From IMG/VR virus record IMGVR_UViG_3300009603_002872, positions 1-56,866 of that record: 56,866 nucleotides of DNA, one strand, 5' to 3'. Under the pieces are notes generated by a model, which was given only the letters and a program-made list of their open reading frames with translations, ran no database searches and was not told the DNA's origin. Made by a program: the position numbers and the translations under genes. Each line of letters opens with the position of its first letter. Within the stretch, counting starts at the first letter, position 1. Source of the stretch: a virus. Shown here piece after piece: positions 8,405-37,219 of this stretch.

Positions 8405-9586
8405 TCAACATTCCTTCTCTGGTTCTATGTTATCCGGGCTATATACCTGCGTCGGTTTTAGCTTCACAAAACTAGTGTCTATTTGATCATCTACAAAAAT
8501 ATTAAACCAATATTCAACGTAATTAGCACCCAGGTTAAAGGAAGTTTCCCCAAGTACACTCGGATCCGCAAAGAATAATTGCTTATATTCGGGGCATGAA
8601 TGGCCTTCGTAAGCAAGCGAATCAATAAACGCATCTTGCTCTGACGCTGACGCAGCCGGATTTTTAAGCACATATCCTGCTTTAAGATCCGTAATCTCAT
8701 CATCCGTCAGATCTTTTTTAATGCAGCCAGATTCATCCACCATGTAGACCTCTATATCCAAGTTCTCTTTTTCAAAGACTCCATTAGTTTCCAATGCAGA
8801 GAAAACAAGATCATCGATCCTTTCGAATTCAAAAGTGTCTATGTTTAAAAATGATTTTACCTCTATATCTATCTGTGGTATTTGCTCGTTAATCCCAATC
8901 TGGAACGACTCCGCCTGGTTTGGGAAATACGTAACCGCCCCGCTAATTTCATTAGTCAGTAATTTTACATCCCACGCAGGCGCAAAATCAGAATGAAGCG
9001 AAGAGTTCCCAAGCCTCGTGGAGCCCTGTAGTCCAAGAAGCCCAAGAGCGGAAAGCGACAACGTTCTGGTTTCGAAATCTCTAACAACAACGCGTTCAAA
9101 TCTTTGCGTTACGGAGGCCGGCATTCTAAACGCATCTTCTTCGTCGCATTGTATCGGGACTCCCTTAATAGGGTCAAAGCATATCTCTTCTTGTTCGCCT
9201 GTTTCTGGTTCTGATCCCGGTGGACCCTCTCCTCCAAGTTCAGGCTCTCCTCCAAAAAAGGGCTTTAATTTCCATACCTCCTCTTGGTAATCCAAGCCTC
9301 CATAGTCCCCAACATCATACGTTGATTGATTTAGCGGTGTTTTATGAAAAACTTTCAGCCTGGGTGTCTCAAAAATTCTTTCCGTCGCTTCGCTCTGTTC
9401 TTCTAGCTGGAGGCCTCTCTGGGAATTGGAGCTAGTGGCGGACGCATACCTAACATCATAAATTATGTCATCATCGTAAAAAGCATAATAAGCCGGGTCT
9501 AGTTTGCCGTCTCGCAATAACCTTTCGCCGTGCTTTGTTAACTTTATGTCCAGTACTTCTTCTTTCCTATTAAAAAATTCCGCCAT
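8405..9586 (-). CDS. Virion protein with N-terminal LT..G/DDD module (related to the 295-aa protein)
   Basis: A 393-aa protein starting at an ATG with GAGAGGT upstream. Residues about 10-46 read VLDIKLTKHGERLLRDG, then FYDDDIIYDVRY, which aligns with the N-terminal module of the protein at 129-1016 (LT, G, L, G, aromatic, DD, I, Y in the same order). Around residues 110-140 is an acidic Pro/Gly/Glu linker containing two cysteines. The C-terminal half is acidic with beta-like strands. The shared N-terminus suggests both proteins dock on the same or a related virion site and carry different distal parts. Confidence 0.75.
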   Translation of the reverse strand: MAEFFNRKEEVLDIKLTKHGERLLRDGKLDPAYYAFYDDDIIYDVRYASATSSNSQRGLQLEEQSEATERIFETPRLKVFHKTPLNQSTYDVGDYGGLDYQEEVWKLKPFFGGEPELGGEGPPGSEPETGEQEEICFDPIKGVPIQCDEEDAFRMPASVTQRFERVVVRDFETRTLSLSALGLLGLQGSTRLGNSSLHSDFAPAWDVKLLTNEISGAVTYFPNQAESFQIGINEQIPQIDIEVKSFLNIDTFEFERIDDLVFSALETNGVFEKENLDIEVYMVDESGCIKKDLTDDEITDLKAGYVLKNPAASASEQDAFIDSLAYEGHSCPEYKQLFFADPSVLGETSFNLGANYVEYWFNIFVDDQIDTSFVKLKPTQVYSPDNIEPEKEC

Positions 9587-12500
9587 TACTTTCTACCTCT
9601 CGTAACCGATTCAGCTTCCCGCGCTGCCGCCTTCTTCTTTCTTGTCTTTTGTTCTTGTTTCATACCGCAAACTTCCGATTTTTGTTCTTGTTTCTCATCT
9701 ATCTTCGCTTGAGATTTGGAATCGATTAATATGTTTTGTAGCGGTTTCATCTTGGTTGTTCGCGTATCTTCTCCAAATTTTAGGCTTATCTCAAGTTCCC
9801 CTAATTCAATCAAGGAGAAATAATCATAAGGCCAATTATAGGAATATTTAGATGTTAAGTCCTGTCCCACCTCTTGGCCAAATTCAGTTATGGACCGCTT
9901 ATTCACTATTGCCCTTTGTTTCACCTTGAATATCATCCATCTAATCTCATCCGTAAATTCCATATCATCAAAAGTAGTTAAATCTACAATTGTTTTTTCT
10001 TTAATCTCAAAGTTGTCATCCCTTCCAAGGTTAACATTTGTATTTTGCCATATGGCACATAGATCAACCTCTGACAACTCCGTAGAAAACTCAAATACGT
10101 GCATAACAACCGGTGAAAACTGGGGATTTCTTGCAAAGTCAAATCTTGGCGGGAATAAGAACTCCCCCAATGCTTCCCGTGTCTGCTCATATAGATGATG
10201 ATCCTCGCATAAATTAAAAAATAAGATGTCCTGCGTTACCGGATCTATTCTCATCGGAACCGCAACAACCGCCTCTTTGATCTCAAAAGACTCTCTTACC
10301 TCGCCAATCCTCTTTCTTCTGTCTTCTCTTGGAATACCAATTGCATCCCATAGAGATTTGGAACCATCATTTGGTTCATCAAGAATCATGAAGACCCCGT
10401 TGCTTGTATTCTTAGATGGGACTTCTCCGGCGGTTGTCCATATGCTTGTCTGATTCTTGTGTAACTCAAGTAAGTCTCCAGATGCTCCCGCCGCTTGCAG
10501 GTCTCTCAGTACATTGACAAAATTAATGGCGGGCGTCTGCCACTTCGGCCTAATTCTCCAAATTTTATCGCTTGTTTGTGCATCGTCTACAGTTGTTATT
10601 CTGTTATCGTCCGTAACCTGTGTGCCTGGATCAACTACAATCTCATCTATATTCAAAGACGCAGTGATGGCCATAAGATCTCTTTGAACATCTGCTAGGG
10701 CCGTGACTGTTCCTATCGCGTCCAAAGTTCTCCAATCCTTAAATGTTCTTGTGGAAGTACCCAATACATCATGCACAGTCGGCTTAGAAGATGACGGTAT
10801 AAATGTTAATTCAACATGATTATTTTCAACGCTATATGCAGATGACTCATCTAATTTGCGAGCCGCTTCAACAAATGAAGGCACAAATGGATTAAATATC
10901 TCTCTTAGACCTCCTATATTTGTATAAAGAAAGTTTGGTCCATATCCCCCAACGTTACCACAACTCAAAAAATCATTAGACATTAAAGAAATTCTGCCTT
11001 TATAGGTTTCGTTCACTTCAAAAGAATTCCATTTTCTTTCCGCAGGGAATAAAATTTCAGCGCCGCCACCTTCAAGATTCATATACTCAACTTCAGTTTC
11101 AAAATTATCTATCGCCTTAGTATACAGAATTGTTCTATGCTCAACTTTTGCTTGTGTAATTGAAGCAGTTGAATTCGTTAAGTATTCCGGGCCCGCCGAA
11201 TTATCATGCCATCCAGTGCTCCCAAGCGGAAACAAATATGGGATCGGATCTCTAAGAGCCTCAAACGGAAGTCTCCTTAGGCCCGTACCGCCGTTTAGCG
11301 TAGCAGAGTACTCTATAAGGTGCGTACCAAAAAGCGAGCCGCTAGTCGGCGCTAGCGCGGCGTTATACGCAACAACCGACGACGTTACTAAAGGATAGTC
11401 TACCGCGATTCCAGACTTAATAGAATTCAATAAGATACCCGGAGAAGTAAACGGCTGTATCATCGTTCTAGCTGTCCTCTGGGGACCCGCTAAGGTCACA
11501 ATATCTTTTATAGAAGAAGATAACATGGAAGACAATTGAAGCACTCTCTCGGCAGGATAAAATCCATCATACGGCTTAAATTTCTTTAGGGCCCTGAACG
11601 TTAGGCTTACTTGACTAGTAGGGCCGTAATCACTTGGTGCAAATTGCACCGGATCCGTTAATAAATAAGAACCAAGGAATTCCGGGCCCTTTGTGGTGCT
11701 TGCCAAATCACTAAACGCAATATTGAAGGAACCAGTTAAGGTAAACACTATTAAATCTTTTAATACAGAATTACCAATTCCTTGTGCTGGATCAATCTCC
11801 GGATTGTCCAAGATCTTGCTAAATGAGAACTCCGGAATCACCGACATGCCCTGGCCGGCTAGTTTGGTATTTCTCTCAAAATCCCTCTCGTTATTATGGT
11901 AAGGATTCCTCGATGGGTTATCCGCTATCTCAAGAGAGGGGAGCCTTAGAGGCATTGTAGTGTATATATCCCAATCCTTAATCGCACCAATATTAGTCAC
12001 ATATTGAAGGCGGGTGGCGGCATATGCCGGAGAACCATCAAAAGTTAACAACTCTCCCCTTGTTCCACTCGCAAAGTTATACGTCAAGTTTCCCGTTTCT
12101 GCCGTCGCTGTCCCGATGGTCCAATCCGAATCGGCATCCAGCGGCCAAATACTCGACGCCGTAGCAATGCCACACGAGTTAACCTTAGTGGTAGTCGTCC
12201 TTGCGTCCCTGCTATCTTTCCAAAATGGTGAAATATATTTTTTTCTAGTCCTTGTTGTATTGCGAAGAGCGTTTACTTCTCTTGGCCAAACTCCTTCTTT
12301 ATAAATTAAAGAATTAAAAGACTTAACGGGATTTATACCTTCCGGAACTTTTGTATCTGAATACAATTCAAACAACACATCGTGCATAGTTCTCTTATCA
12401 TAAATACCATCATCTAGTACTTGGTGTGGAGTTAAGTCTTTCTCGGCTGCATGTGTGTACCGATACGTCGCTGGACCTTTCTTTGTTTCAACACTATGCT

Positions 12501-15500
12501 GGACCGGCCTGTATTTGACGGTTACAACTGAGGACGACAAAAATAGATTTTTTCCATCATTAACCAATCTGTTCTCAGCGCCTATGACAGAATTAACAGA
12601 ATGAACGTTGTTTCTATTTTGCCACCTTGTTACTGGGTTCTGAGACGACCTGATTTGCTTCCAAATAGGCCATCCAAATGGCCCGTTTCTATTCAACAGC
12701 CTTGCGTTGAGTTGATCGCCAAGCACGCCAAATTTTGTGTTTACAAAGGCTTCAGAGCTATCAGTCCCTCCTAGGACGGATGCCGTTACATTAAATGTTT
12801 CGACCACTCTAGTATTCAGGCTAGTAAAGTCTACGGGTGCCTGGCCTGTCTTTAGTAATACATTCAAAAAATCAATTCCAGAATGATTTGAATTAACCAA
12901 GGAACCCGTTTGATATCCAAGAGGTAGTAGAATTGCGGAGCCCGTAATCCATGTATACTGTGAATCGCTTCTTGGTATAGGATGAATAACAAAGAAATTA
13001 TCAAATACGCTAGATGTTGCGACTACTCCAAGGGAACTAGACTTAATAACCTTCAGTGGGTTCTGATAAATGCCGTGTATTGAGCCGGTGTCCAATGTAA
13101 ACTTTTCAGTTTTCGCCGATAAGTTATTACGCAGAACCGTTCTAACAACCAAGTTTCTAAAGTTAAGAGAATTGTATACAGAATATTCGCCCGCATACGT
13201 ATCCAGGTAACCCTCGCTCATCGTATATTTATCCCCGGGGGAGGAGAACCTTTGGACAAAGACGCTGCGATTATAATTCCCGTCATCCAGCGTTCTCTCG
13301 GTCAATCCAGTGGTTCCAAAGCTAGCAGACTGCCCGTTGTTTAAAAATGGCGTCTCGGCGAAAGAAGAGCTTACTACGGCTCTTCCATCCGAAGCAGCCA
13401 GATTATTTTCTCTTCGCCCACTAACGATTTGTGCAATCTCGTATGAGGCGCTATAATTTCCCACAGAGTCCGCCGTGGTCTTGATATTGCGAATGCTCAG
13501 TGGCCGTTTTATCTTTGGAAATCTCCAAAGTGTTACCGGAGTTGTACCAAACGTTCTTTCAAATGTGGTGCCGTTTGTAAATACGTATCCTTCGCGCCTA
13601 TCGGTTGCAGCTACTTTATGGTGCCTATGAAAAAACCCACCGACCTTATCAGAAATATAAGGGCTTCCATTCAGAGATGATTCATATGGATTATTTAATT
13701 GTGACGCATAGCCGTCCTCATGAAGAGCTACAAGCTCCGTACCTACAGTTGATCCATCGTCGGCAACTATCTCGACATCAACGGTATTATTGGTCTCATA
13801 ATACGCCCCAGGCGCTATCTTTTGTGTCGTTAACGTCGTGACACCAGCGTTATCCGTAATCACAGTCTCGTACTCTATTCTCTGCTTTCTTTCCGGAAAG
13901 CTTGCCTCGTTATCAATCCTCTCCTGGGCGCTTGATGTCGCCGAGGGCGTGGCCACAATTGTATCTCCAAACCGCAGGCCCGTCCAGGCAAAGATGTTCT
14001 GATTTCGACGAGCATTTGTACCACCCTTCATATTGGTGACAAAAGCCATGTTCACCGTTGTTCGCCTGCCCAAGTCTACCCTTGCAGAATTTCTAATCGC
14101 TTGGCGCGTTGCATCAACCCCAACGTCACCAGACGTAATTTCAGGATCTGCCGCATCCTTTGTAATCCTTAGCGCCGTAATTCCAGCCTTGGACGTCCCA
14201 TCCGGCGTGACATGAAAATTTCGAACGTCGGCAAAATTAGTTCCGCCTCTATCGTTTTCATTGGAATTTTCTCTATTATCATTATTCGGCCCCTGGGCCG
14301 ACGAGTTCCCCCCGCCTACAGGAGGCGGAAGTTTTGTAGTATTATTGAAATTGAGATTTGGATTGTCTCTAAGACCATGACCCGTCGGGGCAAATTGCCG
14401 TTCGCGAGAAGTTCCCGAGATCATATTCGTATACTTATGCTGATACTTGTTTCTCTCTAGAACATGGCTTTCAATTACCGTTCTAATATCAGAAGAGTGT
14501 TCAGCAGAGACAGGGAACAGATCCTGGACCAAGTACGTTATAGACGAATCTAGCCACTTATAATAATTAACAAATTTATCAAAGTCCGGTTGCCTTTCTA
14601 TCTTTCTAAAGTAAATCTCTCTTAGCTTTTTAAGTTCCTTATATTCGATTCTGTACTTATTGACAGGGTTTCCAATGTAGTTATTAAACTGTTGGATCGT
14701 TGAGAACATATGGAGCATTTCTTCCGAAATGAGCCCATACATGCTTGATTCAATAGAGAAGAACATATTTGTGGGCCGAGTTCTCTTGGTAAACGTATTT
14801 GGATTTGTCTCTTCAATATTGATTAGATCATAATCATGTAAATTTCCGGGAACATTTAAATCGAGCATTTGATAATACTTCGTTCTAAACAGAGAAGAGC
14901 CGGAGTCAAATCCAACGGCGCGGCCCGGATGATACTTATATACGGGCTCAGTCGCAATATTGTCTGGGTTTGTCTGCCCAGGCAACGGAGAGCCGACCCT
15001 TTTTAACGACCCCGACGAAATATCAAGGACCTCATTATACTGGCCGAGCGGAGACGTAATAGTAGCCGTACTTCCAGTCAACGCAGTAGCTTCATCAGTT
15101 TCCTCAGGATATTCAAAATCCCAATTTAAAACAAGGGAATCCGTTCTTGGAAAAAACTCAGAATATGTTTGATTATCATTAAACACAAAATTGCTATAAT
15201 ACGGAGTTTTAAGGCCGTAATTGAATGGATCCAATATGTGCCGCTTCACCTCATCGTTGTCAACATATGTTTTATAACACCTAAAATTTCTAACCATTAC
15301 ATCAGAAGGCGCTAGAACCGTGCCCGTATGTCCTGTCCTTGTAGCCCCTATATACCCTCTTACAAGGCTCACACTTGATGTGACCGGCGGTGCGTGAAAC
15401 ACTGTCCCTGAGATCTCACGAACAATTTCTCCAGCGTCCATTTGAACTCCGTATAATTCAATATTATACGATCTATCTATGGTAAGTGGGGCACCCGTAA

Positions 15501-18165
15501 CGGGATCCGACGTGGATATAGCCGTGGGCTCCGCGACAAGGGGGCCACCCACATCCGGTATTGAACCACCACCGCCAGGATTAATCCCCGGCTTTTCCGC
15601 CGATCCACTTGCAAGATGTGAATTGGATATAGAGGAAGCCGCGTCAACAAGATGTCCCCAGTCATTTCTAGGGCTCCATCTAAGAGCAAAGTTCCAATGT
15701 GTGCCTTCATATAGATCAAATATTGAAGACGTAAATGGAGTCGTTGCCAGATCTCCCGTGCCTGTCCCTTCTTTGACAACAAACTTGGCCTTCTTTGATC
15801 TTATATCCGGGTTACCAAGATCATCCACCTTAACGGCATATAGGGTTATCCTCTGATCATATTGGCCCGTGTGAGTTGTGAGTGGGGACGGGGATGAGCC
15901 CACATTTGTAACGCCAAAAACTGATGCCGATACTTGCGATACCGATATAAAATTTGGATCAAAGAAATCTTTTCTATCTGGAAAAAAGACGCCTGCTTCC
16001 CAAGTATGTGAGTTGCCAAAATCAGCAGTACTAAAATTAATATAGGCCTGCGACATATTTGGGGTTTGCTCTCCTCCTAAAATACTCGTAGATGAAGTCG
16101 CTTGAAAAATCGTTCCCGTTTGTGCCGTCGAAAAGTCAACAAACCTCTTTCTTTCCGTTGTTATCCTTTCATGATCTTTGAGTTCATATACTCCGTTTTT
16201 ATTATAAACATTTAACCTGAATACTTCGTCATCAATACCAAAACACCGAAGAACATTCCTTAGTGCCTTTTCGGTCCCCTTTGATTTATATATCGATATG
16301 AGATTATTGTGTATATTCTTATAAATAACATTTTTAATATCATGCAGGCTCTTCTCAAAGAGTCGATCTTCATCTCTCCGAAAAAGGGCCTGAACAACAT
16401 CGGAATCGATAAAGAAATCCGCAGAGTTCATGCCATATGATTGAAGAATAGAATTTAACATTCCCGCAGGGTACGAATTTTGTTTCTCGTAATCTACATG
16501 TTTGAGTTTAGACAAAAATTCCGACTGGTGGTACAACTTATCAAAATAGCTCGCTATAACTTGCGTGAGTTTAGTCAGTTCCCCAACGGAACCAGAAGAT
16601 GTTAAATCTTGTTCATCAAGTATCCATCCTGGTAAATTATTAAGCAGGTACGAGTTGTTTCTAGAATCATGAAGTGTTCCAGACAACTCCTTTTCTTCAA
16701 TATAATTTATAATATCTCTATGATTTCGATATAAAATCGGATCTTTAAATTCTGGCGTAGAAGACGCACTAGATTCATTAATGGCGGATCCTTCTGAGCG
16801 GTGGCTGCCCGTGTCAAGCCCTACCCATCTGCCGTTGGATACTCTCCCCGAATAATCCAACACAACAGAATCGAATGCAGGATTTCCTACAATGCCTTCA
16901 TTAAATTTATAATATACTCCCAACTTCGTATTGGAAGTATCCGTGTTTGTTCCACCAAAAACATGTGTAAAGTAATTCTTGGCAATATCTTTTGAGTTTC
17001 TATAAGTCTTCCAATACCTAAATTCATCAATAGAGCCGGAAAGTTTTCCCCAGCCGATGGCAGCATTGGAATTATTAGGCGGCGCAGCCCTAAGCGCGCC
17101 AATATGAGCAATATTGCCACCAGCAGGAGCAATATTAGGATTGCTCATCACCCTTTGGATTTTTGTTCCTGTCGCAACCGACTCATGGTGCCTTCCATCG
17201 ACATAAAAATCTATATCAATAGTGTCTATTGATCCTGTATCGTTCCTCAGCGCAATCGCATAATGGTGCCAATTATTATCGGCTACCGATGCCGTTCCTA
17301 TTGCCGCGATTGTATTCTCAGGATTACCAAAGAAAACATCATCATCAGATGAACCAGAGCCAATTATCGCCCTCTGGACGCCGCCTCCCGCTCCGCCGAT
17401 TACACCAGACATAGCAGTTACCAAGAATGTTGGTGCGCCATGAGGATGGCCACCGCTACTAGTTAACTCAATCAAGAGTCTGCCATGTGCATCGGGATCC
17501 GTCTCTCCGTTCCACAAATCAAATATGACTTCTTTCCCGGTTAGGGTGGGAATATATGAATCTTTCTTAAGCCAAAACTCAACAGTCGCGCCACCAAAAT
17601 CCCCAGTTTTCCAACTGCCACTTAAGTCAAATTTTAGATTTTCTTCTTGAAATGTTCCTGTGTTGTATACGTTGTCAACGTTAGGACCACTTCTAACAGC
17701 AATATATTCCTGATCACTAGGACTCCCATATCCTTCGGCCCAGTTTGGATCGGTGGGATCTGTTATTAAGGGTGTCGATAGTGTTCCCCAGCCACCAGCA
17801 GCATGGGGAGAAAAGATCGCATACCCTGTCGCCCTGGGGTACTCCTTTTCAAAAACATACTTGTCCAAATACGACGAACTGTTCGCCCACGCTGTTTTCT
17901 CAGCCGCAGACCCATCATACGGGTATGTGTTAATGATCCTATCGGTCGAATCCAAAAAATATCTTTTGGCAGACCCAAATCTAGCAAAATTAGATGCCGA
18001 AGCATAGTCTATATCCGGAATAAATTCCTTTCTTGATTCTAAAGAATGAAAAACAAAATCTTTGGACTCGACATCGCCTGAAAAAGTCTCCAGCGTAGAT
18101 TTTTTTATAAATCCTGACTTATGTGACTCTTTTACATTTTTTTCGAATTTGTCTTTAAGAGACAC
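9586..18165 (-). CDS. Giant 2859-aa tail/baseplate protein with LamG-like lectin domain
   Basis: One uninterrupted 8.6 kb frame. The start is GTG, supported by an AGGAG site 8 nt upstream in the short gap to the 645-aa gene. Residues about 175-440 form a concanavalin-A/LamG-like jelly roll: TVEFWLKKD, NNWHHYAIALR, FYVDGRHH, LSGSIDEFRYW and YYKFNEG occur in the order expected. These domains usually bind carbohydrate. The remainder is long, beta-rich and Ser/Thr/Asn-rich. The C-terminal about 45 residues are Gln/Lys/Glu/Arg-rich and probably helical. The size and place just downstream of the gp6-like wedge gene suggest a peripheral baseplate or fibre-anchoring role. No endosialidase or lyase catalytic motif is visible by eye. 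Confidence 0.85.
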   Translation of the reverse strand: MSLKDKFEKNVKESHKSGFIKKSTLETFSGDVESKDFVFHSLESRKEFIPDIDYASASNFARFGSAKRYFLDSTDRIINTYPYDGSAAEKTAWANSSSYLDKYVFEKEYPRATGYAIFSPHAAGGWGTLSTPLITDPTDPNWAEGYGSPSDQEYIAVRSGPNVDNVYNTGTFQEENLKFDLSGSWKTGDFGGATVEFWLKKDSYIPTLTGKEVIFDLWNGETDPDAHGRLLIELTSSGGHPHGAPTFLVTAMSGVIGGAGGGVQRAIIGSGSSDDDVFFGNPENTIAAIGTASVADNNWHHYAIALRNDTGSIDTIDIDFYVDGRHHESVATGTKIQRVMSNPNIAPAGGNIAHIGALRAAPPNNSNAAIGWGKLSGSIDEFRYWKTYRNSKDIAKNYFTHVFGGTNTDTSNTKLGVYYKFNEGIVGNPAFDSVVLDYSGRVSNGRWVGLDTGSHRSEGSAINESSASSTPEFKDPILYRNHRDIINYIEEKELSGTLHDSRNNSYLLNNLPGWILDEQDLTSSGSVGELTKLTQVIASYFDKLYHQSEFLSKLKHVDYEKQNSYPAGMLNSILQSYGMNSADFFIDSDVVQALFRRDEDRLFEKSLHDIKNVIYKNIHNNLISIYKSKGTEKALRNVLRCFGIDDEVFRLNVYNKNGVYELKDHERITTERKRFVDFSTAQTGTIFQATSSTSILGGEQTPNMSQAYINFSTADFGNSHTWEAGVFFPDRKDFFDPNFISVSQVSASVFGVTNVGSSPSPLTTHTGQYDQRITLYAVKVDDLGNPDIRSKKAKFVVKEGTGTGDLATTPFTSSIFDLYEGTHWNFALRWSPRNDWGHLVDAASSISNSHLASGSAEKPGINPGGGGSIPDVGGPLVAEPTAISTSDPVTGAPLTIDRSYNIELYGVQMDAGEIVREISGTVFHAPPVTSSVSLVRGYIGATRTGHTGTVLAPSDVMVRNFRCYKTYVDNDEVKRHILDPFNYGLKTPYYSNFVFNDNQTYSEFFPRTDSLVLNWDFEYPEETDEATALTGSTATITSPLGQYNEVLDISSGSLKRVGSPLPGQTNPDNIATEPVYKYHPGRAVGFDSGSSLFRTKYYQMLDLNVPGNLHDYDLINIEETNPNTFTKRTRPTNMFFSIESSMYGLISEEMLHMFSTIQQFNNYIGNPVNKYRIEYKELKKLREIYFRKIERQPDFDKFVNYYKWLDSSITYLVQDLFPVSAEHSSDIRTVIESHVLERNKYQHKYTNMISGTSRERQFAPTGHGLRDNPNLNFNNTTKLPPPVGGGNSSAQGPNNDNRENSNENDRGGTNFADVRNFHVTPDGTSKAGITALRITKDAADPEITSGDVGVDATRQAIRNSARVDLGRRTTVNMAFVTNMKGGTNARRNQNIFAWTGLRFGDTIVATPSATSSAQERIDNEASFPERKQRIEYETVITDNAGVTTLTTQKIAPGAYYETNNTVDVEIVADDGSTVGTELVALHEDGYASQLNNPYESSLNGSPYISDKVGGFFHRHHKVAATDRREGYVFTNGTTFERTFGTTPVTLWRFPKIKRPLSIRNIKTTADSVGNYSASYEIAQIVSGRRENNLAASDGRAVVSSSFAETPFLNNGQSASFGTTGLTERTLDDGNYNRSVFVQRFSSPGDKYTMSEGYLDTYAGEYSVYNSLNFRNLVVRTVLRNNLSAKTEKFTLDTGSIHGIYQNPLKVIKSSSLGVVATSSVFDNFFVIHPIPRSDSQYTWITGSAILLPLGYQTGSLVNSNHSGIDFLNVLLKTGQAPVDFTSLNTRVVETFNVTASVLGGTDSSEAFVNTKFGVLGDQLNARLLNRNGPFGWPIWKQIRSSQNPVTRWQNRNNVHSVNSVIGAENRLVNDGKNLFLSSSVVTVKYRPVQHSVETKKGPATYRYTHAAEKDLTPHQVLDDGIYDKRTMHDVLFELYSDTKVPEGINPVKSFNSLIYKEGVWPREVNALRNTTRTRKKYISPFWKDSRDARTTTTKVNSCGIATASSIWPLDADSDWTIGTATAETGNLTYNFASGTRGELLTFDGSPAYAATRLQYVTNIGAIKDWDIYTTMPLRLPSLEIADNPSRNPYHNNERDFERNTKLAGQGMSVIPEFSFSKILDNPEIDPAQGIGNSVLKDLIVFTLTGSFNIAFSDLASTTKGPEFLGSYLLTDPVQFAPSDYGPTSQVSLTFRALKKFKPYDGFYPAERVLQLSSMLSSSIKDIVTLAGPQRTARTMIQPFTSPGILLNSIKSGIAVDYPLVTSSVVAYNAALAPTSGSLFGTHLIEYSATLNGGTGLRRLPFEALRDPIPYLFPLGSTGWHDNSAGPEYLTNSTASITQAKVEHRTILYTKAIDNFETEVEYMNLEGGGAEILFPAERKWNSFEVNETYKGRISLMSNDFLSCGNVGGYGPNFLYTNIGGLREIFNPFVPSFVEAARKLDESSAYSVENNHVELTFIPSSSKPTVHDVLGTSTRTFKDWRTLDAIGTVTALADVQRDLMAITASLNIDEIVVDPGTQVTDDNRITTVDDAQTSDKIWRIRPKWQTPAINFVNVLRDLQAAGASGDLLELHKNQTSIWTTAGEVPSKNTSNGVFMILDEPNDGSKSLWDAIGIPREDRRKRIGEVRESFEIKEAVVAVPMRIDPVTQDILFFNLCEDHHLYEQTREALGEFLFPPRFDFARNPQFSPVVMHVFEFSTELSEVDLCAIWQNTNVNLGRDDNFEIKEKTIVDLTTFDDMEFTDEIRWMIFKVKQRAIVNKRSITEFGQEVGQDLTSKYSYNWPYDYFSLIELGELEISLKFGEDTRTTKMKPLQNILIDSKSQAKIDEKQEQKSEVCGMKQEQKTRKKKAAAREAESVTRGRK

Positions 18166-18175
18166 TTAAAATCTC

Positions 18176-20113
18176 CTACTCTACACGAAATTTAAATCTT
18201 TCCGGTTGCTCGTCCTGCTGTTCTCCTGAGCTGATCAGGAAAGATATACCATACGAGTAATTTTTCTCTAATAAAGACATATCAAAATCAAAGTAACTTC
18301 CAGAAATATCGTAAGATAGTTTGGTATAATCAAGAACCCTGGTTGATTGCGCCACAGTACTTCCTGTTCCGTATACGATTACAGGATAATTGTCAGCAAC
18401 TCTATAAATTTTGTAATACATTCTTTCAATAATTTCAGGGGTTTGCTTTGACGTTGCAACACTATACAGGTTAGGATTCCAGTCCTTCCTTCTGGAAAAA
18501 ACCCTAAACCGAGGTTTTTCATTATCCTTGTACACCGGCTTAAGATTAGAAATTGTTGTGACGTACTCAGAAACAGCGTTAACCACAGTTGTTTTTCTTT
18601 TATTTAAATCAATCGAGCCCGTAAAAAATTCCGTATACCCCGTTTGCGTTCTGTCCGCCCACCCAACGTTGGACCATATATCATATACTTTCGAAAGGTT
18701 GCTCAGCACTCCAGTAATCGCAAAGGACGCCGTATAGATTCCGGTGGCATAATACCCACCCGTGATTACTTGTCCCGCAGCACTCCCGGTAACACCCCCG
18801 CCCTGGGGCAGTAGCAACGCAGAAGACACCGGAGCATTATTTCCTAAGTTGCCGGAAAATAAAGAAACATATATGGGCCCCGTGCCCGCATCAGGAATAT
18901 CTTGCAGACGACCATCAATATAATTATATAAGTAAATTGTATTCAAGTTTCCTGATTGGTTCGCCAAAGAGCTACTGAAAAAACAATTCCCCCTGCTATC
19001 CTGCGTGGAGTCGTCCCACCTAACTTCCAGTGTTGGTCTTCTGTGGAAATATTGGCTGCCTCTAGCGGAGAACATTTTATTAAAGTACGATACGCTACCG
19101 GTTTCCAAACTCGACGTAAACATGACCGCCAGACCATTGTTCTCCAAGCCATTGGTAGTGCGAAGCCAGGAATGGGCCAAGGTGGTTATGTTCACTTCTA
19201 AGTCTTCCGTACCTTTTTCAAAATATGCGGTATACTGATCATCAAAAGAAGTAAAATCGCCGCCTGAAGCGGTCCAAGGAGTATGATTGCTTCCGCTCGT
19301 AAACGTCTCCGCCGCAAAGCTGCCGGCACCAAGCCCTTCTAGGGTGCCAGCATTGATGCCCTTAAAGCTCTGTACTGTGTTCCTTGGTACCGCACCACCA
19401 ACAGAGCTTGTAAACTGGATAAGGGACACATCAGTTGCGTGAACCGTAGATGCCCAATTCGCGTTCGCATTTACCGCTCCGGCCACAGCAGTCGCTATTG
19501 TAGCGGCAGTCGCCCCGGAACTTATATCGACTTCAATTGACACTCCGGTCCCACCTACCGTTGGTTCGGCACTCAAATTATCAACATCAATCCAGATTTT
19601 ATACGAGATATTATTTGCATCGTTGAGAAGAAAATACTTGCCCCCAGTATCTCCGGCTGTGTCCGCCACGCAATCCAACTGATACGTGCCTGCTCTTTTG
19701 GTATCCGTGGCGTTTGCCCAATTGGCAGAATCCTTATCGGAATAATTGAACATATCGAGGCCATTGCCCTCTTCCCAATAAGTGGTAACTGGCTTAACAG
19801 ATAAATGAAATTGTTTCGGGGTCTGTTGATCGTGCACTACATTATAGAGTCTTAAAAAATACTGTGGTCCGTTTGTAATTGTTCCCGACGGTATTGTTCC
19901 TCTAGTAATTAAATCAGATATATCTTGCATCGGAAACTCTAGCAAGATACGACTTAACTCGTTATCTCTAGGAGCGCCGCTTCCAGAGATAACAAACGTT
20001 TGTAGGCTATCGGCAGCACCCATGCTGGAACTAACGCCGTTTTTAAGCTTAAAGGAATCACGAGCATTCGTAATTGTTGTATCCTTTGTTGCTGTGAATC
20101 TTTTTACTGCCAT
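18176..20113 (-). CDS. Baseplate/tail fibre-like structural protein
   Basis: A 645-aa protein whose ATG overlaps the upstream stop (TAATG), indicating coupling to the gp6-like gene. The N-terminus (MAVKRFTATKDTTITNA) and the VTTYWEEGNGLDMFNY region near residue 110 resemble DNRLRE-type beta-sandwich repeats in marine phage structural proteins; this is from memory, not a search. The protein is Gly/Ser/Thr/Asn-rich and beta-dominated, with no membrane segment. It directly precedes the 2859-aa gene. Likely a baseplate wedge-associated or fibre-connecting protein. Confidence 0.7.
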   Translation of the reverse strand: MAVKRFTATKDTTITNARDSFKLKNGVSSSMGAADSLQTFVISGSGAPRDNELSRILLEFPMQDISDLITRGTIPSGTITNGPQYFLRLYNVVHDQQTPKQFHLSVKPVTTYWEEGNGLDMFNYSDKDSANWANATDTKRAGTYQLDCVADTAGDTGGKYFLLNDANNISYKIWIDVDNLSAEPTVGGTGVSIEVDISSGATAATIATAVAGAVNANANWASTVHATDVSLIQFTSSVGGAVPRNTVQSFKGINAGTLEGLGAGSFAAETFTSGSNHTPWTASGGDFTSFDDQYTAYFEKGTEDLEVNITTLAHSWLRTTNGLENNGLAVMFTSSLETGSVSYFNKMFSARGSQYFHRRPTLEVRWDDSTQDSRGNCFFSSSLANQSGNLNTIYLYNYIDGRLQDIPDAGTGPIYVSLFSGNLGNNAPVSSALLLPQGGGVTGSAAGQVITGGYYATGIYTASFAITGVLSNLSKVYDIWSNVGWADRTQTGYTEFFTGSIDLNKRKTTVVNAVSEYVTTISNLKPVYKDNEKPRFRVFSRRKDWNPNLYSVATSKQTPEIIERMYYKIYRVADNYPVIVYGTGSTVAQSTRVLDYTKLSYDISGSYFDFDMSLLEKNYSYGISFLISSGEQQDEQPERFKFRVE

Positions 20114-21891
20114 TATATAACAACGCCCTGTAGGTCTTTTCCGCTTGATAAAAATCTAATTTCCAAAATTATATCTTCCGGCACGTCAATAAATCTACCA
20201 TCCGACGACAATGCCTCCTCTATGTCAAAGCCTGATGACGTATATCCAGTCCCACTCCTTAGTACTATCTTTACATCCCTAGTATCTACAACAGAATCAA
20301 GCGCATTTAGCGTCTTAAATACTTCCGTCACATAAAATGGAGTGCCAATATCTAATTTTTCCCGATATTTTTCTATCAGGGCCTGGTAGCACTGTGTCAG
20401 CACATCAAACTTGCTAAACTGCAATGAGCCTATAACTGAAAATTCAATGCCAATGTTTACAATCCGGGCATTCAAAATATCTATAGTGTCATTCATCATC
20501 CTATGGGAGTTGATCCATCTTTTTAGATTATTCTTAATATTGATATCCGTCTCAACTAGCGTCTCCGAAGAATTCTCGGAGACGACATAGGCGTTTATGT
20601 TTCTTCGTAAAGAATCCGAATCTCGCACAACGTTTACTCTTTTAACAGATCCAAATTTTGGATCCATTCTATAGCACAGCGAGATATAGTCCTGGCGCGT
20701 GACCGCTCTATTCTGAGTCGCAAAAGAATCTATCGCCCTTCTCTTCACATCGTCATCGGATAAGATAGGGTTATTATTTAAGATAGATCTTTCATTCGTT
20801 ATCTCTAGACTCGATCGAACACTGGCTCTTTCGGAGGCAGATGTTCCGCCGTTTAAAAAGTCCATTAAAAAATTTCCCACTGTGCTTAATCTGCCCACCG
20901 GAACGTTGATAATGGGCCTGGGATTATACCTGTACGTAACAGATAGAGTCGTATTACTAGGTGCGACTCCAAACTTATCACTATTGGTGATTCTTGCAGG
21001 ATCGAAGCTATCATCTTTGACATAGTTTTTCCCAAATACATCTAACACTATATTTCTCGGATTTTCTATTTTGTCCGGTGAGCCATATCCAAATATTACT
21101 GACGTTAAAGAGTCCTCTCGGTCTACAATAAATCTTCTTGGGACGTTAACTTCCCTCATTAGATAAGGAACCAACCTGTTGTTTACAGAGTTGGTATTTC
21201 TAACCGATCTATATACAATATTCTGGCTCAAAAAATCTACTTCGAAATATTCGTTTCCTTCAGAGTCTTCGATCTTTATAATTTCAGTCGCATTCGGTCT
21301 GCTAAGTGTCAATCTTAGGAAGTCTTCTTGTGCCTCTACCACAAACGAATCCGTCTGTAGGTTCCCCCCTACAACCTGCCCAAAGGCCTTCAGGGCGTAT
21401 CTTGTAACCACCCCGGTGGTTCCGTCTTGTGAGTCTACAACGGTCAACAAGTCTTTTTGTCGAAAATCAACATCTTCTGCTAGCGTAAATAACGTGCCAT
21501 CCGCCGCATTAAATGTTGCGCCCTGCCTTAGAGAAGGTAGGTAGTTCAGGTCTGGTCCGTTTCCATCTGCATTCGCTTGGACACTTATATAAAACGCCGC
21601 CGTTCCAAACGGTTTAGTGGAGCCTCCTAACCTAAACCCAAATTGCTTTGCCAACTTTAAAATATTTTTTCTTTCAATCGCCGTAGACAAAAACGATTCA
21701 TTTGCTTGATAATCTACATGCCAAGATAAAACATCTCCCACATAAGCGACAAGATCAAGCATCATAGCGCCAAAGGAAGCTTCGTTAAAGTCTTGAAATG
21801 TATCCGGATAATATTTTTTAGCATACTCCGTCAATTCATTTTTAATAGAAGCAAAATCCCTATTGGTATATTTTATAATCGGCTTTGCCAT
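20113..21891 (-). CDS. Baseplate wedge protein, gp6/baseplate-J family
   Basis: A 592-aa protein with ATG overlapping the gp25-like stop, and a GGAGGA site upstream. The N-terminus is characteristic of T4-like gp6 proteins: TNRDFASIKNELTEYAKKYY, then FNEASFGAMMLDLVAYVGD, a Q.NESFL motif, and ERKNILKLAKQFGF. The central part contains an AIDSFATQNRAVTRQDY segment typical of baseplate-J proteins. gp6 dimers form the core ring of the contractile baseplate and change conformation on host contact. The gp25-gp6 adjacency is the classic wedge arrangement. Length is close to that of other marine T4-like gp6 proteins. Confidence 0.92.
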   Translation of the reverse strand: MAKPIIKYTNRDFASIKNELTEYAKKYYPDTFQDFNEASFGAMMLDLVAYVGDVLSWHVDYQANESFLSTAIERKNILKLAKQFGFRLGGSTKPFGTAAFYISVQANADGNGPDLNYLPSLRQGATFNAADGTLFTLAEDVDFRQKDLLTVVDSQDGTTGVVTRYALKAFGQVVGGNLQTDSFVVEAQEDFLRLTLSRPNATEIIKIEDSEGNEYFEVDFLSQNIVYRSVRNTNSVNNRLVPYLMREVNVPRRFIVDREDSLTSVIFGYGSPDKIENPRNIVLDVFGKNYVKDDSFDPARITNSDKFGVAPSNTTLSVTYRYNPRPIINVPVGRLSTVGNFLMDFLNGGTSASERASVRSSLEITNERSILNNNPILSDDDVKRRAIDSFATQNRAVTRQDYISLCYRMDPKFGSVKRVNVVRDSDSLRRNINAYVVSENSSETLVETDINIKNNLKRWINSHRMMNDTIDILNARIVNIGIEFSVIGSLQFSKFDVLTQCYQALIEKYREKLDIGTPFYVTEVFKTLNALDSVVDTRDVKIVLRSGTGYTSSGFDIEEALSSDGRFIDVPEDIILEIRFLSSGKDLQGVVI

Positions 21892-22298
21892 TAAACGACT
21901 CCTCCAATAAGTTTTGTATCAACAACGATAGTATCGCTAACTCCAAAGTTAGAAATCGAATAGACTATTTCCATCCTAAGCATGTTCAGAGGCAAGGTCG
22001 GCAATTCATCACGAGTAGTGAATGTAATTTCTTTCAGGTTTATAAACGGCATATATTTTTTAACTTGTGAATAAGATTCTCTTTCAATTTTATTTGCCAC
22101 TTCGGAGTTAAAATTTTCAAATAAAAAATTCCTAAGCCCTACGCCAAAAGAAGGAAGCATTACTCGCTCTCCCTTGGATGTTAAAAATAAATTTTTAATA
22201 TTTTGTTTTATTGCGTCACGAAGCGTCTTGTTAAGCCTATACGGACCGTCAATCGGATCATAACGAAGCGGTAATGCTGGTGATATTCCTGAAGCCAT
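21891..22298 (-). CDS. Baseplate wedge protein, gp25/GPW family
   Basis: A 135-aa protein, the usual size for gp25. It has AGAGGA 6 nt before the ATG. Visible family features are LNKTLRDAIKQNIKNLFLTS, then KGERVMLPSFGVGLRNFLFEN with the conserved GER.M.P.FG.GL..FLFE pattern, and a C-terminal beta strand. gp25 sits at the junction of baseplate wedge and sheath and primes sheath assembly. Despite the old lysozyme label for this family, no lysozyme activity is expected. Its stop overlaps the gp6-like start. Confidence 0.93.
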   Translation of the reverse strand: MASGISPALPLRYDPIDGPYRLNKTLRDAIKQNIKNLFLTSKGERVMLPSFGVGLRNFLFENFNSEVANKIERESYSQVKKYMPFINLKEITFTTRDELPTLPLNMLRMEIVYSISNFGVSDTIVVDTKLIGGVV

Positions 22299-33084: not shown

Positions 33085-33261
33085 TTATTCTTTTCCCGGA
33101 TCTTCATCCAGGTGGACTACCGGTGGGTTTTTTACAACAAGTCCATCATTAGTGGGCTCCAAGCTGAACTCTTTAAGGATCCCCGTAACATCTACTTTGT
33201 GTAAAATTCCCCTCTGCAAGGCCATCATTATAGCTCCTACCGCTTGATTCGATAAATTCAT
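33085..33261 (-). CDS. Conserved small phage protein, 58 aa
   Basis: A short gene with a perfect AAGGAGGT Shine-Dalgarno 6 nt before the ATG. Its ATG overlaps the stop of the upstream epimerase gene (ATGA), and its own stop touches the GTG of the zinc-ribbon gene. The product begins MNLSNQAVGAIMMALQRG, continues with a DVTGILKEFSL helix, and ends in an acidic Pro-rich tail. Similar short proteins occur in T4-like cyanophages, from memory. The strong ribosome site and tight fit make it a real gene. Function unknown. Confidence 0.75.
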   Translation of the reverse strand: MNLSNQAVGAIMMALQRGILHKVDVTGILKEFSLEPTNDGLVVKNPPVVHLDEDPGKE

Positions 33262-34139
33262 TTTAGTACCTCCTTAAAACAATTTCGAATTCCTTCTTCA
33301 ATTGATACCTTAGTAAACCACCCCAATCTGGCCAACTTTGATTTATTTGCCAGAGTGACCATGACGTCACCTTTTCTTGGTGGTGCATAATCAAAATTAA
33401 CGTCCGGATTGAACGCCATAACTATTTCTTTCATTTCATTCAATGAAATGTTGGCACCAGTCCCAACGTCAAAAACCTTTCCATTAAACTTATCACTATA
33501 TAGCATAGAGAATATATTTGCGGACACAGCATCAGAAACATGAAGCATGTCCCGTCTCTGCCCGCCGGTTCCCGTTATAAACGGATTCTTGCCTTCTCGA
33601 ATATATTTGATCCAATTTGCTACCGCAGTAGCATACGGTCCATCCGCAGGCTGATCTTTTGAGTACACGTTAAAATACCTAAGGGCAACCGTATCTAGGC
33701 CATATAGTTTCGAATACAGTCCGCATTCCAGTTCAGAGACCAGCTTTTGCAGCGCGTATGGGCTTTCAGGTCCGTAGCCATTGCCGACGATAGAAGAGGA
33801 GCTTGAATAAATAACTCTCTTTGCTCCAACTTTTCTTGCAAAATTTAATACAACACTCGTAGACAAGACATTGTTTTCCATAGTCTGCACAGGCTGCTCA
33901 ATACTAAGCGGCACCCTAGGAAAGCAGGCTAAGTGAAAAATATGTTCTGGTTTAAAATTAAAGTAATGTGGATGAAAATTTCCATCGCTATCTTCTTTTA
34001 GGCCATTTAACTTGGTAATATCTTTTGGAACTTCTTCTTTCAAGTCTATTCCCATAACTTCATGACCCTGATTCTTCAGGGCTTCAAAAAGCCTAGAGCC
34101 AATATAGCCCTTATGTCCTGTCACAAGGCACCTACTCAT
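33258..34139 (-). CDS. NAD-dependent sugar-nucleotide epimerase/dehydratase (extended SDR)
   Basis: A 293-aa protein. Residues 7-14 (TGHKGYIG) form the extended-SDR NAD-binding turn. S112-S116 (SSSSS) supplies the active-site serine, and Y128 and K132 (YALQK) form the YxxxK pair. The late segment LHVSDAVSANIFSM and NGKVFDVGTGANIS are the usual substrate-side motifs. The closest type is UDP-glucose 4-epimerase or UDP-glucuronate decarboxylase-like enzymes; substrate cannot be fixed by eye. It is the last gene of the sugar cassette and overlaps the UDP-sugar dehydrogenase gene by 8 bp, so the two may act in sequence. Confidence 0.85.
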   Translation of the reverse strand: MSRCLVTGHKGYIGSRLFEALKNQGHEVMGIDLKEEVPKDITKLNGLKEDSDGNFHPHYFNFKPEHIFHLACFPRVPLSIEQPVQTMENNVLSTSVVLNFARKVGAKRVIYSSSSSIVGNGYGPESPYALQKLVSELECGLYSKLYGLDTVALRYFNVYSKDQPADGPYATAVANWIKYIREGKNPFITGTGGQRRDMLHVSDAVSANIFSMLYSDKFNGKVFDVGTGANISLNEMKEIVMAFNPDVNFDYAPPRKGDVMVTLANKSKLARLGWFTKVSIEEGIRNCFKEVLK

Positions 34140-34935
34140 TTTTCATACCTCTCATTTCCCCAATTCTAAGATTGGATTTCCAGACCTCTTTTAGGAGTTC
34201 CGCAGAATATCCCTCTTTTTCAGCAGCGCAAGTCAACGCATTGATATCCTTTGGAAGACATTTCCCAGAAAACGGTAGTTTATTCTGGTGAAAAACAGCA
34301 GTGTGCATCGGATTGACTCTTGGGTCTAAAAGAAACAACTCTCTTGCTTCATTATAATCCATGCCAATGGCGTCACAAATATTTTTCATTTCGTAGCAAA
34401 ACGTTATTTTAGTTGCATAGAAGGAGTTCTCCATATACTTAGCGAACTCCGCAGAAGTCGCATTTGTCTTTACATACTTCTTTGTGGGGCCAACAACAGG
34501 CATAAAATAATCAACCATTTTTGATGTATCCACGGGGTCTCCTCCGAAGATAAAAAATGGGGTCTCCTTTACATCCGTATCAAAAGCATACGGAGACCAA
34601 TATGTAGACTCGCCACAATATTCAGGAGAAAATACAATACTTTTGCCTGTTTTCGCTTTGAGTCTTTGAGTTGTTCCCACCTCAACAGTTGACTTCAAAA
34701 GAATAAGGGGAGTGTCAAGCCAATTAATAGTATCTTCAACAATAGATAAATCGCAGCTACCATCGCCTGCCATGGGGGTTGGAACACAGACGACCCCCAA
34801 GTTGCATGTATTTATATATTCTTTACTACAACTCCCTTTTTTTCCAGGATCGTAAAAAACTACATCATAATGATCTTTAAAAAAATCATACATTGCGGTC
34901 CCAACATAACCAAGTCCGATTATTCCTATTTTCAT
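34132..34935 (-). CDS. Short UDP-glucose/GDP-mannose 6-dehydrogenase family protein
   Basis: A 267-aa protein, with GAGGAA before the ATG. The N-terminal GLGYVGTA (residues 7-14) is the NAD turn. STVEVGTT and the FSPEYCGES segment (around residue 102) match the first domain. The helix EFAKYMENSFYATKITFCYEM is the central domain, and GKCLPKD contains the catalytic Cys (C226). Family members normally run about 100-150 residues longer with a UDP-sugar-binding C-terminal domain, which is absent here. The next gene starts within 8 bp, so the stop is not a recent frameshift. Substrate is uncertain. Confidence 0.8.
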   Translation of the reverse strand: MKIGIIGLGYVGTAMYDFFKDHYDVVFYDPGKKGSCSKEYINTCNLGVVCVPTPMAGDGSCDLSIVEDTINWLDTPLILLKSTVEVGTTQRLKAKTGKSIVFSPEYCGESTYWSPYAFDTDVKETPFFIFGGDPVDTSKMVDYFMPVVGPTKKYVKTNATSAEFAKYMENSFYATKITFCYEMKNICDAIGMDYNEARELFLLDPRVNPMHTAVFHQNKLPFSGKCLPKDINALTCAAEKEGYSAELLKEVWKSNLRIGEMRGMKNE

Positions 34936-34942
34936 ATGTTCC

Positions 34943-35584
34943 TCATTTATTCAAAATCTTATCGTACTGGCCAATTTCATCCACGTTTTTTGTCCTGTTG
35001 CTGGCGTGTTGTCTATACCTATAGAGCGGCATCTCTAAATGAAAATAACTATACTTTTTTGAAAATCGCTTTAACAAGTCATGCCCCTCTCTCATTTTAA
35101 ACTTTTCATCATAGAAATTAATGCCGCATAGGGACTCGTAAGTAAACATTATACCACATGCGACTGGTTCGTCGCTAAAATTATATGCCCCCAAGGTATT
35201 GCCAACCTCATCAACTTTTTTATAGTCACATGCAACTGCTTGGTATTTTCTATTCATATCTAAAAATAATGACAGCGACTGTAGGAAGTGTTTCGACACA
35301 TAATCATCCGCGTCTATTCGAACAAAGTACCTTCCCAGGGACTGGTTCAGGGTCTTATTTAACGACGCAGGCAACCCTATGTTCTCTTTATTATTTATAA
35401 GTCTAATATTCAAATGTGGCTCAACTATACTACAAATGTCATCTAGGCTTTCATCCGGATTATCATTGACGATTATAACTTCAAATTCGTCAGTGGGTAA
35501 GGTTTGCCCAATAAGGCTTCTAAGGCACCTGTGTAGCCAGTCTCTCTGTTTATAGCAGCACACAGCTACCGTTACCTTGTACAT
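34943..35584 (-). CDS. Glycosyltransferase family 2 (GT-A)
   Basis: A 213-aa protein with ATG. It starts VTVAVCCYKQRDWLHRCLRS, the usual first strand and helix of GT2 enzymes, followed by FEVIIVNDNPDE. The metal/nucleotide-sugar site is RIDADDY near residue 95. The C-terminus ends RYRQHASNRT. There is no membrane segment, so it is cytoplasmic. Donor and acceptor are not readable. It overlaps the hydroxyacid dehydrogenase gene by 13 bp. Confidence 0.85.
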   Translation of the reverse strand: MYKVTVAVCCYKQRDWLHRCLRSLIGQTLPTDEFEVIIVNDNPDESLDDICSIVEPHLNIRLINNKENIGLPASLNKTLNQSLGRYFVRIDADDYVSKHFLQSLSLFLDMNRKYQAVACDYKKVDEVGNTLGAYNFSDEPVACGIMFTYESLCGINFYDEKFKMREGHDLLKRFSKKYSYFHLEMPLYRYRQHASNRTKNVDEIGQYDKILNK

Positions 35585-36468
35585 GCTTCTAAAATCCCTT
35601 CCAGGGCCTTTCTCTGGCTCTCTACAGTCGCACCAGCAACATGGGGGGTTATTACAAGATTATCATGTCGCAAATTGAATAACTTTGATTCTTTCATGTT
35701 ATAGACATCTTGTTCATTGCATAAAACATCGCAAGAGTAAAAAATCTTATCATCAGTTATAAGGCCATGAATATAGTCTTCGTCGACCACCTCGCCCCTT
35801 GAAGTATTCACGACAATTAAGCCATCTCTAAAGTCATCAAAAACACCCTCTCTTATCATCTTCTTTGTTTCTTTTGTCAAATAGCAATTAATCGAAATTA
35901 TATCACGATCTTTCAAATCATCAATATTTTTAACTTTTTTGTATTTTTCGTTGTCTACATACGGATCAAAATATGAAATATCCATTTCAAATGCAGTTGC
36001 ATATTTCGCTATTTTCCTACCTATTCTTCCAAGGCCCACAATTCCAATCTTTTTGCCAGCCAACTCATTGGATCTCAGTAGCTCTTCGTTTGCCTCTGTT
36101 CTCCAGGGCCTGTGTTTTTTAACAGCCTTGGTAAATTTTCTAAAGGAGTTCATTATATGGATCCACGTAAATTCCGCCGACGCATGAATATTTTCAAGCG
36201 CATCCCTATTATCAAGAAGGCATTTTAGTTCAATGCCTTTTTCTTCTAGGTATTTAGAGTCAATATGTCCAACGCCCGTAGACGGGGTTCCGACGATTTT
36301 TAAACCTCTGAACTTAGAAAAATATCTCTCCCCAAGATAGGAATCTGTTCCGGGGTTTACGATTAAACAAGACGGTTCTCCGCTCGCGCTATAACCATAC
36401 TTAAATAAAATTTCTCCAAGCTCTTTTTTGCTTAGAAAACCCACAGGACAATCAATTTTAACTCTCAT
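35572..36468 (-). CDS. D-2-hydroxyacid dehydrogenase (phosphoglycerate dehydrogenase-like)
   Basis: A 298-aa protein with ATG. The Rossmann turn is GLGRIG (145-150) followed by the strand to DPY. NTSRGEVVD (221-229) supplies the catalytic Arg, and TPHVAG contains the catalytic His (H276). The length is a bit short of the usual 310-330. Such enzymes occur in polysaccharide and nonulosonic acid loci, where they may oxidise or reduce a 2-hydroxyacid precursor; the substrate here is not known. It overlaps the NeuA-like gene by 11 bp. Confidence 0.85.
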   Translation of the reverse strand: MRVKIDCPVGFLSKKELGEILFKYGYSASGEPSCLIVNPGTDSYLGERYFSKFRGLKIVGTPSTGVGHIDSKYLEEKGIELKCLLDNRDALENIHASAEFTWIHIMNSFRKFTKAVKKHRPWRTEANEELLRSNELAGKKIGIVGLGRIGRKIAKYATAFEMDISYFDPYVDNEKYKKVKNIDDLKDRDIISINCYLTKETKKMIREGVFDDFRDGLIVVNTSRGEVVDEDYIHGLITDDKIFYSCDVLCNEQDVYNMKESKLFNLRHDNLVITPHVAGATVESQRKALEGILEACTR

Positions 36469-37219
36469 CTTTTTCTCTCAATAAAAGCTCTGCCCTTCTA
36501 TCTTTTAGGAGAATCTCTGCTAGTTTTAGATCATTCCACGAGTCTATGTTTACAGAGCTTCTTTCATCCATAATATAAGGGCGACATATTCTACCATGCC
36601 TAGAAAACTGTTTAACAATGCAGTCTCTAGTCATCGAATATATGGCCCCATTTCTAATATAGCATGGCTCAAGATCTTGTCTTCTACTCCCCTCCCCCTC
36701 TGGATGCTCCTTGCAAAAGTCTTCGATCCTGTCGTCTACTATTCTTTTCATCCTAACCGGATGTTTATCCTGCATTTTAACAACAGACGTAACGCTGTGC
36801 GTTCCCGAGTTTACAAGCTTCGTGACCGCATCTTCTATGTGCTCTTCGGTCCTAAGGGGGGCTACACACGGCAATTCTACTACATAATCATACTTGATAT
36901 TGTAGATTTTTTCACATTCGATAACAGCATGTTTTAATGCGTCCCTTGACCACACTCCATCTCCAGATAGTCTTTGCGGCCGCATAAACGGAACGAGAGC
37001 ACCACGTGCTTCAGATATCTTGGCAATTTCTTTGGAATCCGTGCTTACCACATAATGACTAAATACTCCGCTCTTTAATGCCGCATCAATCGTATAAGCG
37101 ATTAAGGGCTTGCCATCTATGTTCCGGATATTCTTTTTAGGAACGCCCTTTGAGCCGCCACGAGCCAATGTTACACCTAGTATTTTTAAGGTGCCTCCAA
37201 ATAATTTATTTCTTTTCAT
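36458..37219 (-). CDS. CMP-nonulosonic acid (sialic acid-type) cytidylyltransferase, NeuA-like
   Basis: I start at ATG 37219 (253 aa); a longer frame would begin at TTG inside the NeuB-like gene. R20-GGSKGVPKKN is the CTP-binding signature of the family, followed by GKPLIAYTI. VVSTDSKEIA, ALVPFMRP, SRRQD (about 178-182), NGAIY (190-194) and NIDSWNDLKLAE (224-235) appear in the right order. It would make a CMP-activated nine-carbon or related acid from CTP. It sits directly after the NeuB-like gene with a 14-bp overlap, so the pair probably acts consecutively. NeuA and related CMP-sugar synthetases cannot be separated by eye. Confidence 0.88.
   Translation of the reverse strand: MKRNKLFGGTLKILGVTLARGGSKGVPKKNIRNIDGKPLIAYTIDAALKSGVFSHYVVSTDSKEIAKISEARGALVPFMRPQRLSGDGVWSRDALKHAVIECEKIYNIKYDYVVELPCVAPLRTEEHIEDAVTKLVNSGTHSVTSVVKMQDKHPVRMKRIVDDRIEDFCKEHPEGEGSRRQDLEPCYIRNGAIYSMTRDCIVKQFSRHGRICRPYIMDERSSVNIDSWNDLKLAEILLKDRRAELLLREKDES

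Follow-up and report, generated by a model that had tools for sequence, protein, structure and literature searches.

By gene position, the baseplate wedge proteins closest to the one described here are gpI of phage P2 (176 aa) and gp7 of T4 (1032 aa), which sit beside J and gp6, and another wedge protein, gp17 of phage XM1, is given as 242 aa in the report on that phage (PMC10457771). LamG domains have also been described in phage tails, where the report on Stenotrophomonas phage AXL3 proposes a host-specificity role for the tail protein gp21 because its LamG varies (PMC7504290). The window analysed here, a 56.9-kb IMG/VR virus record, encodes a giant protein of 2859 aa that resembles gpI and gp7 in its order after J or gp6 and resembles gpI in a short KGT motif, but departs from both in its size, in two LamG sandwiches, in a large C-terminal half and in an extra 645-aa gene placed after J. 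With gp21, as far as the AXL3 report describes it, the giant shares the presence of LamG in a phage tail, whereas its first LamG is fixed and conserved where that of gp21 varies. We conclude that this is a genuine core tail gene, from a virus family that is abundant but poorly described, and that it appears to put lectin folds to an unusual use.

The gene is a single unbroken ORF on the minus strand (9586..18165) with a GTG start, just 5' of which lies a Shine-Dalgarno-like AGGAG, and about 10 bases separate the GTG from the end of the gene upstream. The earlier note's claim of a single 8.6-kb gene for 2859 aa is borne out, with the strand now added, and its guess of a structural protein is backed, the term "virion protein" being drawn from gene position; we regard the product as a probable baseplate wedge or periphery protein. 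An identical protein is encoded in a 123.5-kb IMG/VR contig. A first scan of IMG/VR gave 34 loci, and a pattern search gave at least 576 relatives among the 598 matching stretches listed (80 kept), yet this abundant family yielded no tblastn match in 50,697 phage records with two queries, the window protein and the N-terminal part of one relative. Likewise, a literature search on LamG-type and lectin folds in phages and baseplates found no description of the giant's family. From 112 loci matching the A1 profile, 107 relatives were retained as ORFs after dropping five, and k-mer dereplication leaves 91; the drop list comprised L002, L003 and L036 (the window's own virus), L017 (a duplicate), L018 (frameshifted), and L025 and L030 (C-terminal pieces). 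The giant of L018 (10001-17421) is broken by apparent frameshifts, probably sequencing errors; stop-codon recoding was considered but is less likely, because the matching blocks change frame.

The virus is uncultured, probably T4-like and apparently marine. All 21 family records searched have a gp25 match at E <= 0.001, above the cut-off in 20, and a gp23-type capsid gene is found in 10 of 12; the two without one are the window, itself a fragment, and the 123.5-kb contig that is its near-copy. Foldseek searches against viral models returned uncharacterised proteins with 29-34% identity across the whole first structure model, some of them labelled uncultured marine virus. A scan of genome contigs found nine loci in MAGs of several phyla, four of which match just part of LamG, and these phyla are not read as hosts. 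One relative lies inside a 2.85-Mb WOR-3 MAG chromosome (CP070664.1, 585627-594941), either as a provirus or as a wrongly joined virus contig.

The genes upstream of the giant, all on the minus strand, encode a gp25-type baseplate wedge protein of 135 aa (21891..22298; PF04965, E 3.1e-13, above the cut-off), a gp6/J-type baseplate wedge protein of 592 aa (20113..21891; the baseplate wedge subunit families PHROG 10646, E 5e-20, and PHROG 219, E 4e-19), which finds cultured homologues annotated as baseplate wedge, and, between gp6/J and the giant, the 645-aa neighbour (18176..20113). This order, gp25, gp6/J, a gene of about 510-745 aa and the giant, is conserved: among the 107 relatives, which include some near-identical pairs, those with enough upstream DNA have gp25 in 92 of 93 cases, J in 98 of 99 and the syntenic middle gene in 102 of 102. 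The one exception to the gene order is L111, which does have J and gp25 but at about 7 kb upstream of the giant, farther than the usual 1.5-2 kb or so. The window's 645-aa neighbour exceeds most relatives' versions (about 510-560 aa) and has a weak tail-sheath PHROG match at residues 185-242; its homologue in L010 has a LamG domain, and its Mel-JY01 counterpart is CBM96-like.

Counterparts of the giant itself stand a few genes after gp25-J in the cultured phages Mel-JY01 (WWT39511.1, 1337 aa) and Flavobacterium phage immuto (YP_010114574.1, 1265 aa), in both of which they are annotated as hypothetical proteins, and in an uncultured 484-kb phage (1404 aa), and are matched by the A1 profile at full E values of 2e-15, 5e-15 and 1e-20, respectively. 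The match falls at the helical segment (domain E 4e-12 to 2e-15) and recurs near residues 1150-1250, clearly in two of the three. The Mel-JY01 and immuto proteins are like the giant in their place after gp25/J and in their KGT-bearing helical segment, but they are under half its length and lack a Pfam LamG match.

The helical segment comprises residues 483-665 (16171..16719, minus strand), is helical over residues 483-641 in the structure models and is our proposed gpI/gp7-like core. It contains the KGT motif (residues 623-648; 16222-16299, minus strand), whose block ranks second in conservation among the 25-residue blocks of residues 1-1300 (0.78 over 92 sequences) and at which the giant's resemblance to gpI is concentrated. 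Tail_P2_I (PF09684) matches the giant at E 0.0057 and 12 bits, below the curated 20.6; weak matches turn up in 4 of the 23 family records and one of the three distant relatives searched, each of the five falling on the KGT motif, with no match in the other 21 of these 26. Against a gpI profile, windows of the giant that hold the motif reach HH scores of 21-23 and those elsewhere at most 14.4, at HH probabilities of only 3-5% and with consecutively overlapping windows, so that the control windows are not independent; for the counterparts the KGT windows score 31-32 and the others at most 17, at probabilities of only 39-41%. A gpI profile built from 13 sequences, used to search directly, did not rank the giant above background ORFs. 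Aligning single segments by hhalign with P2 gpI and with T4 gp6, gp7, gp8 and gp10 gave nothing usable, with no T4 gp7 similarity. The fold-search lists were filled by LamG entries, and the absence of a wedge entry for the core among the matches listed is not evidence of absence. Since the direct search fails to lift the giant above background, we stop short of assigning it to the gpI/gp7 family and say only that it may work like these proteins. A peripheral tail fibre or tailspike-type protein, outside the wedge and resembling gpI at the KGT motif by chance, would agree with these sub-threshold direct matches and with a large, beta-rich, LamG-bearing chain, but we consider it unlikely in view of the near-universal single position after gp25-J, the slow N-terminal module and a helical segment common to the counterparts.

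On either side of the helical segment stands a lectin-fold domain, and for both the structure models recover a Concanavalin A-like sandwich. The first, at residues ~112-471 (16753..17832, minus strand), is recognised by sequence, fold and conservation. Pfam Laminin_G_3 matches the whole giant at residues 276-395 (E 7.2e-5, 23.4 bits) and a fragment of it at 25.4 bits, both below the curated 27.6; of the 28 sequences in the N-terminal alignment, 18 match this family at E <= 1, the best of them at 6.1e-18. In model 1 (residues 51-1250, 28 sequences, pLDDT 61.7 overall) this domain, at model residues 62-421, superposes on PAPP-A LG and pentraxin chains with Z up to 19.4, rmsd 3.4 and 225 aligned residues. 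The LamG domain claimed by the earlier note is therefore confirmed by both the family and the fold match, and the structure models also disclosed a second LamG-like sandwich that the note did not contain. This one, at residues ~671-1104 (14854..16155, minus strand), was obtained in model 2 (residues 455-1250, 92 sequences, pLDDT 74.5) with Z 14.3, rmsd 3.7 and 215 aligned residues (model residues 217-650), and is followed there by helices. Relative to PAPP-A LG and the pentraxins the two sandwiches are alike in fold, with best-row sequence identities of about 14% and 11% for the first and second, respectively. The module closes with a conserved helical end at residues 1142-1250 (14416..14742, minus strand), defined by conservation, by helices and by the second stretch common with the counterparts.

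A lectin fold at a baseplate raises the alternative, in line with the earlier note's idea of host-glycan binding, that the first LamG is a receptor-binding lectin at the baseplate rim, which binds a conserved surface glycan common to many hosts. Its LamG/pentraxin fold would suit this role, carbohydrate-binding domains are among its fold matches, and in a PDB sequence search with the A1 profile, where all matches were weak, the best was the carbohydrate-binding domain of a sialidase (4c1w, E 0.012); the same search with A3 returned nothing but one unrelated chain. A receptor binder would be expected to diverge faster than structural parts, but the first LamG changes about as slowly as the helical core when closer relatives are compared in ten pairs. 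Among the relatives at large, which have an N-terminal identity of about 32-43%, it is still among the most conserved parts, and of all 25-residue blocks in residues 1-1300 the one at 401-425, within it, is the best conserved (0.82 over 92 sequences). Because of this conservation and this pace the first LamG looks like architecture and not like a fast-evolving receptor binder; variation and inserts, moreover, are located elsewhere in the giant. We thus hold the receptor-lectin reading to be improbable, while a conserved first LamG of this modelled fold may still be compatible with glycan binding.

The C-terminal half (residues 1351-2859; 9586..14115, minus strand) shows the opposite pattern, its conserved motifs being broken in relatives by insertion hotspots, and PHROGs and Pfam searches gave no family for this half of the window protein. 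Each of the ten closer pairs has its least identical bin within residues 1251-2859, and one pair (L037 and L040) is nearly identical apart from a 183-position difference in the alignment of the 1500-1850 region. We counted 24 inserts of 112-730 residues each in 10 of 27 relatives, all but one of them after residue 1500. Nine insert pieces, a part of the 24, were scanned, and five contain a LamG above the Pfam cut-off, from four relatives: L009 (twice), L019, L031 and L032, the inserted LamG of L032 being nested inside the first LamG. In some relatives this half is a gene of its own: among 78 complete giant ORFs from the set of 107, 13 are shortened and have a second long ORF directly downstream, and in L115 the ORF breaks at residue 1156. 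The slow LamG and core, the late position of the inserts and the split ORFs therefore point to an N-terminal module that stays fixed and an outer part that can be exchanged.

The reading that we favour as the probable one makes the giant a core component of the baseplate, with its N-terminal module at the gpI/gp7 place, with LamGs that are mainly structural, and with host contact located rather towards the C terminus. The N-terminal module (residues 1-1250: LamG, KGT helical segment, second LamG and helical end) would take the wedge place of P2 gpI and T4 gp7 beside gp6/J, and the main job of the two lectin-fold sandwiches would be to give the baseplate rigid domains for structure or docking. 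The outer part, formed by the C-terminal half, would change faster and take up further domains in related viruses, among them several additional LamGs, and host contact, possibly with glycans, would be likelier there. More tentatively, an uncultured T4-like lineage may have rebuilt gpI/gp7 as a protein of 2.8-5.2 thousand residues, in which two frozen LamGs act as scaffold and the LamGs at the hotspots act as exchangeable adsorption domains; this is a possibility that we would not yet put on a par with the baseplate role itself. If our reading is true, the usual view of a LamG in a phage tail, that it determines host range, would not hold for its conserved copies, and the genuine adsorption modules would be indicated by the insert hotspots.

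The earlier note had placed the giant near a sugar cassette, which is right in that the two share a genome, but the cassette begins about 15 kb off, with baseplate and other genes between. It occupies 33258..40769 on the minus strand and, by NCBIfam assignment, comprises genes of NDP-sugar epimerase/dehydratase and dehydrogenase types together with a PseF-like cytidylyltransferase (36458-37243), a NeuB-like gene (37206-37901) and an NAD synthase (38867-39721), all likewise on the minus strand. The NeuB-like protein has 231 aa and aligns to positions 3-260 of the 329-position NeuB model, and so is without the C-terminal part. NeuB, a marker of the sialic-acid type, occurs in 7 of 21 records that all encode the giant by selection (6 of 20 if the window and its near-copy are counted once) and that may be incomplete, CTP_transf_3 occurs in 10 of 21, and 19 of 20 have a family-2 glycosyltransferase. 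Sugar genes are therefore common in the family without any tie between its NeuB branch and the giant, so that the link between giant and cassette appears weak. The description of the giant as Ser/Thr/Asn-rich is literally true (S+T+N 24.0%) but ordinary, since ten other window proteins span 15.8-26.8%, and the giant is not enriched in N-x-S/T sequons, because 25 are observed against 31.5 (sd 4.7) expected from 500 shuffles. Whether a record has NeuB (n = 6) or lacks it (n = 13) also makes no significant difference to the S/T/N content or the sequon density of its giant (p 0.77 and 0.28, respectively, by Mann-Whitney test), with L018 and the near-copy left out and split genes counted by their first ORF alone. 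Judged by composition, there is no sign of the giant as a favoured glycan acceptor. That the giant is an acceptor decorated by the viral cassette with sialic-acid-like sugars is accordingly very unlikely: the shared genome and a NeuB about 12-22 kb upstream of the giant in the six independent NeuB-positive records speak for it, but NeuB was not found in the remaining 14 of the 21 possibly incomplete records, and neither sequons nor composition set the giant or its NeuB-positive relatives apart. Elsewhere in the tail region of the window, two proteins (129-1016 and 8405-9586) have a similar N-terminal stretch, as seen by eye in their translations.
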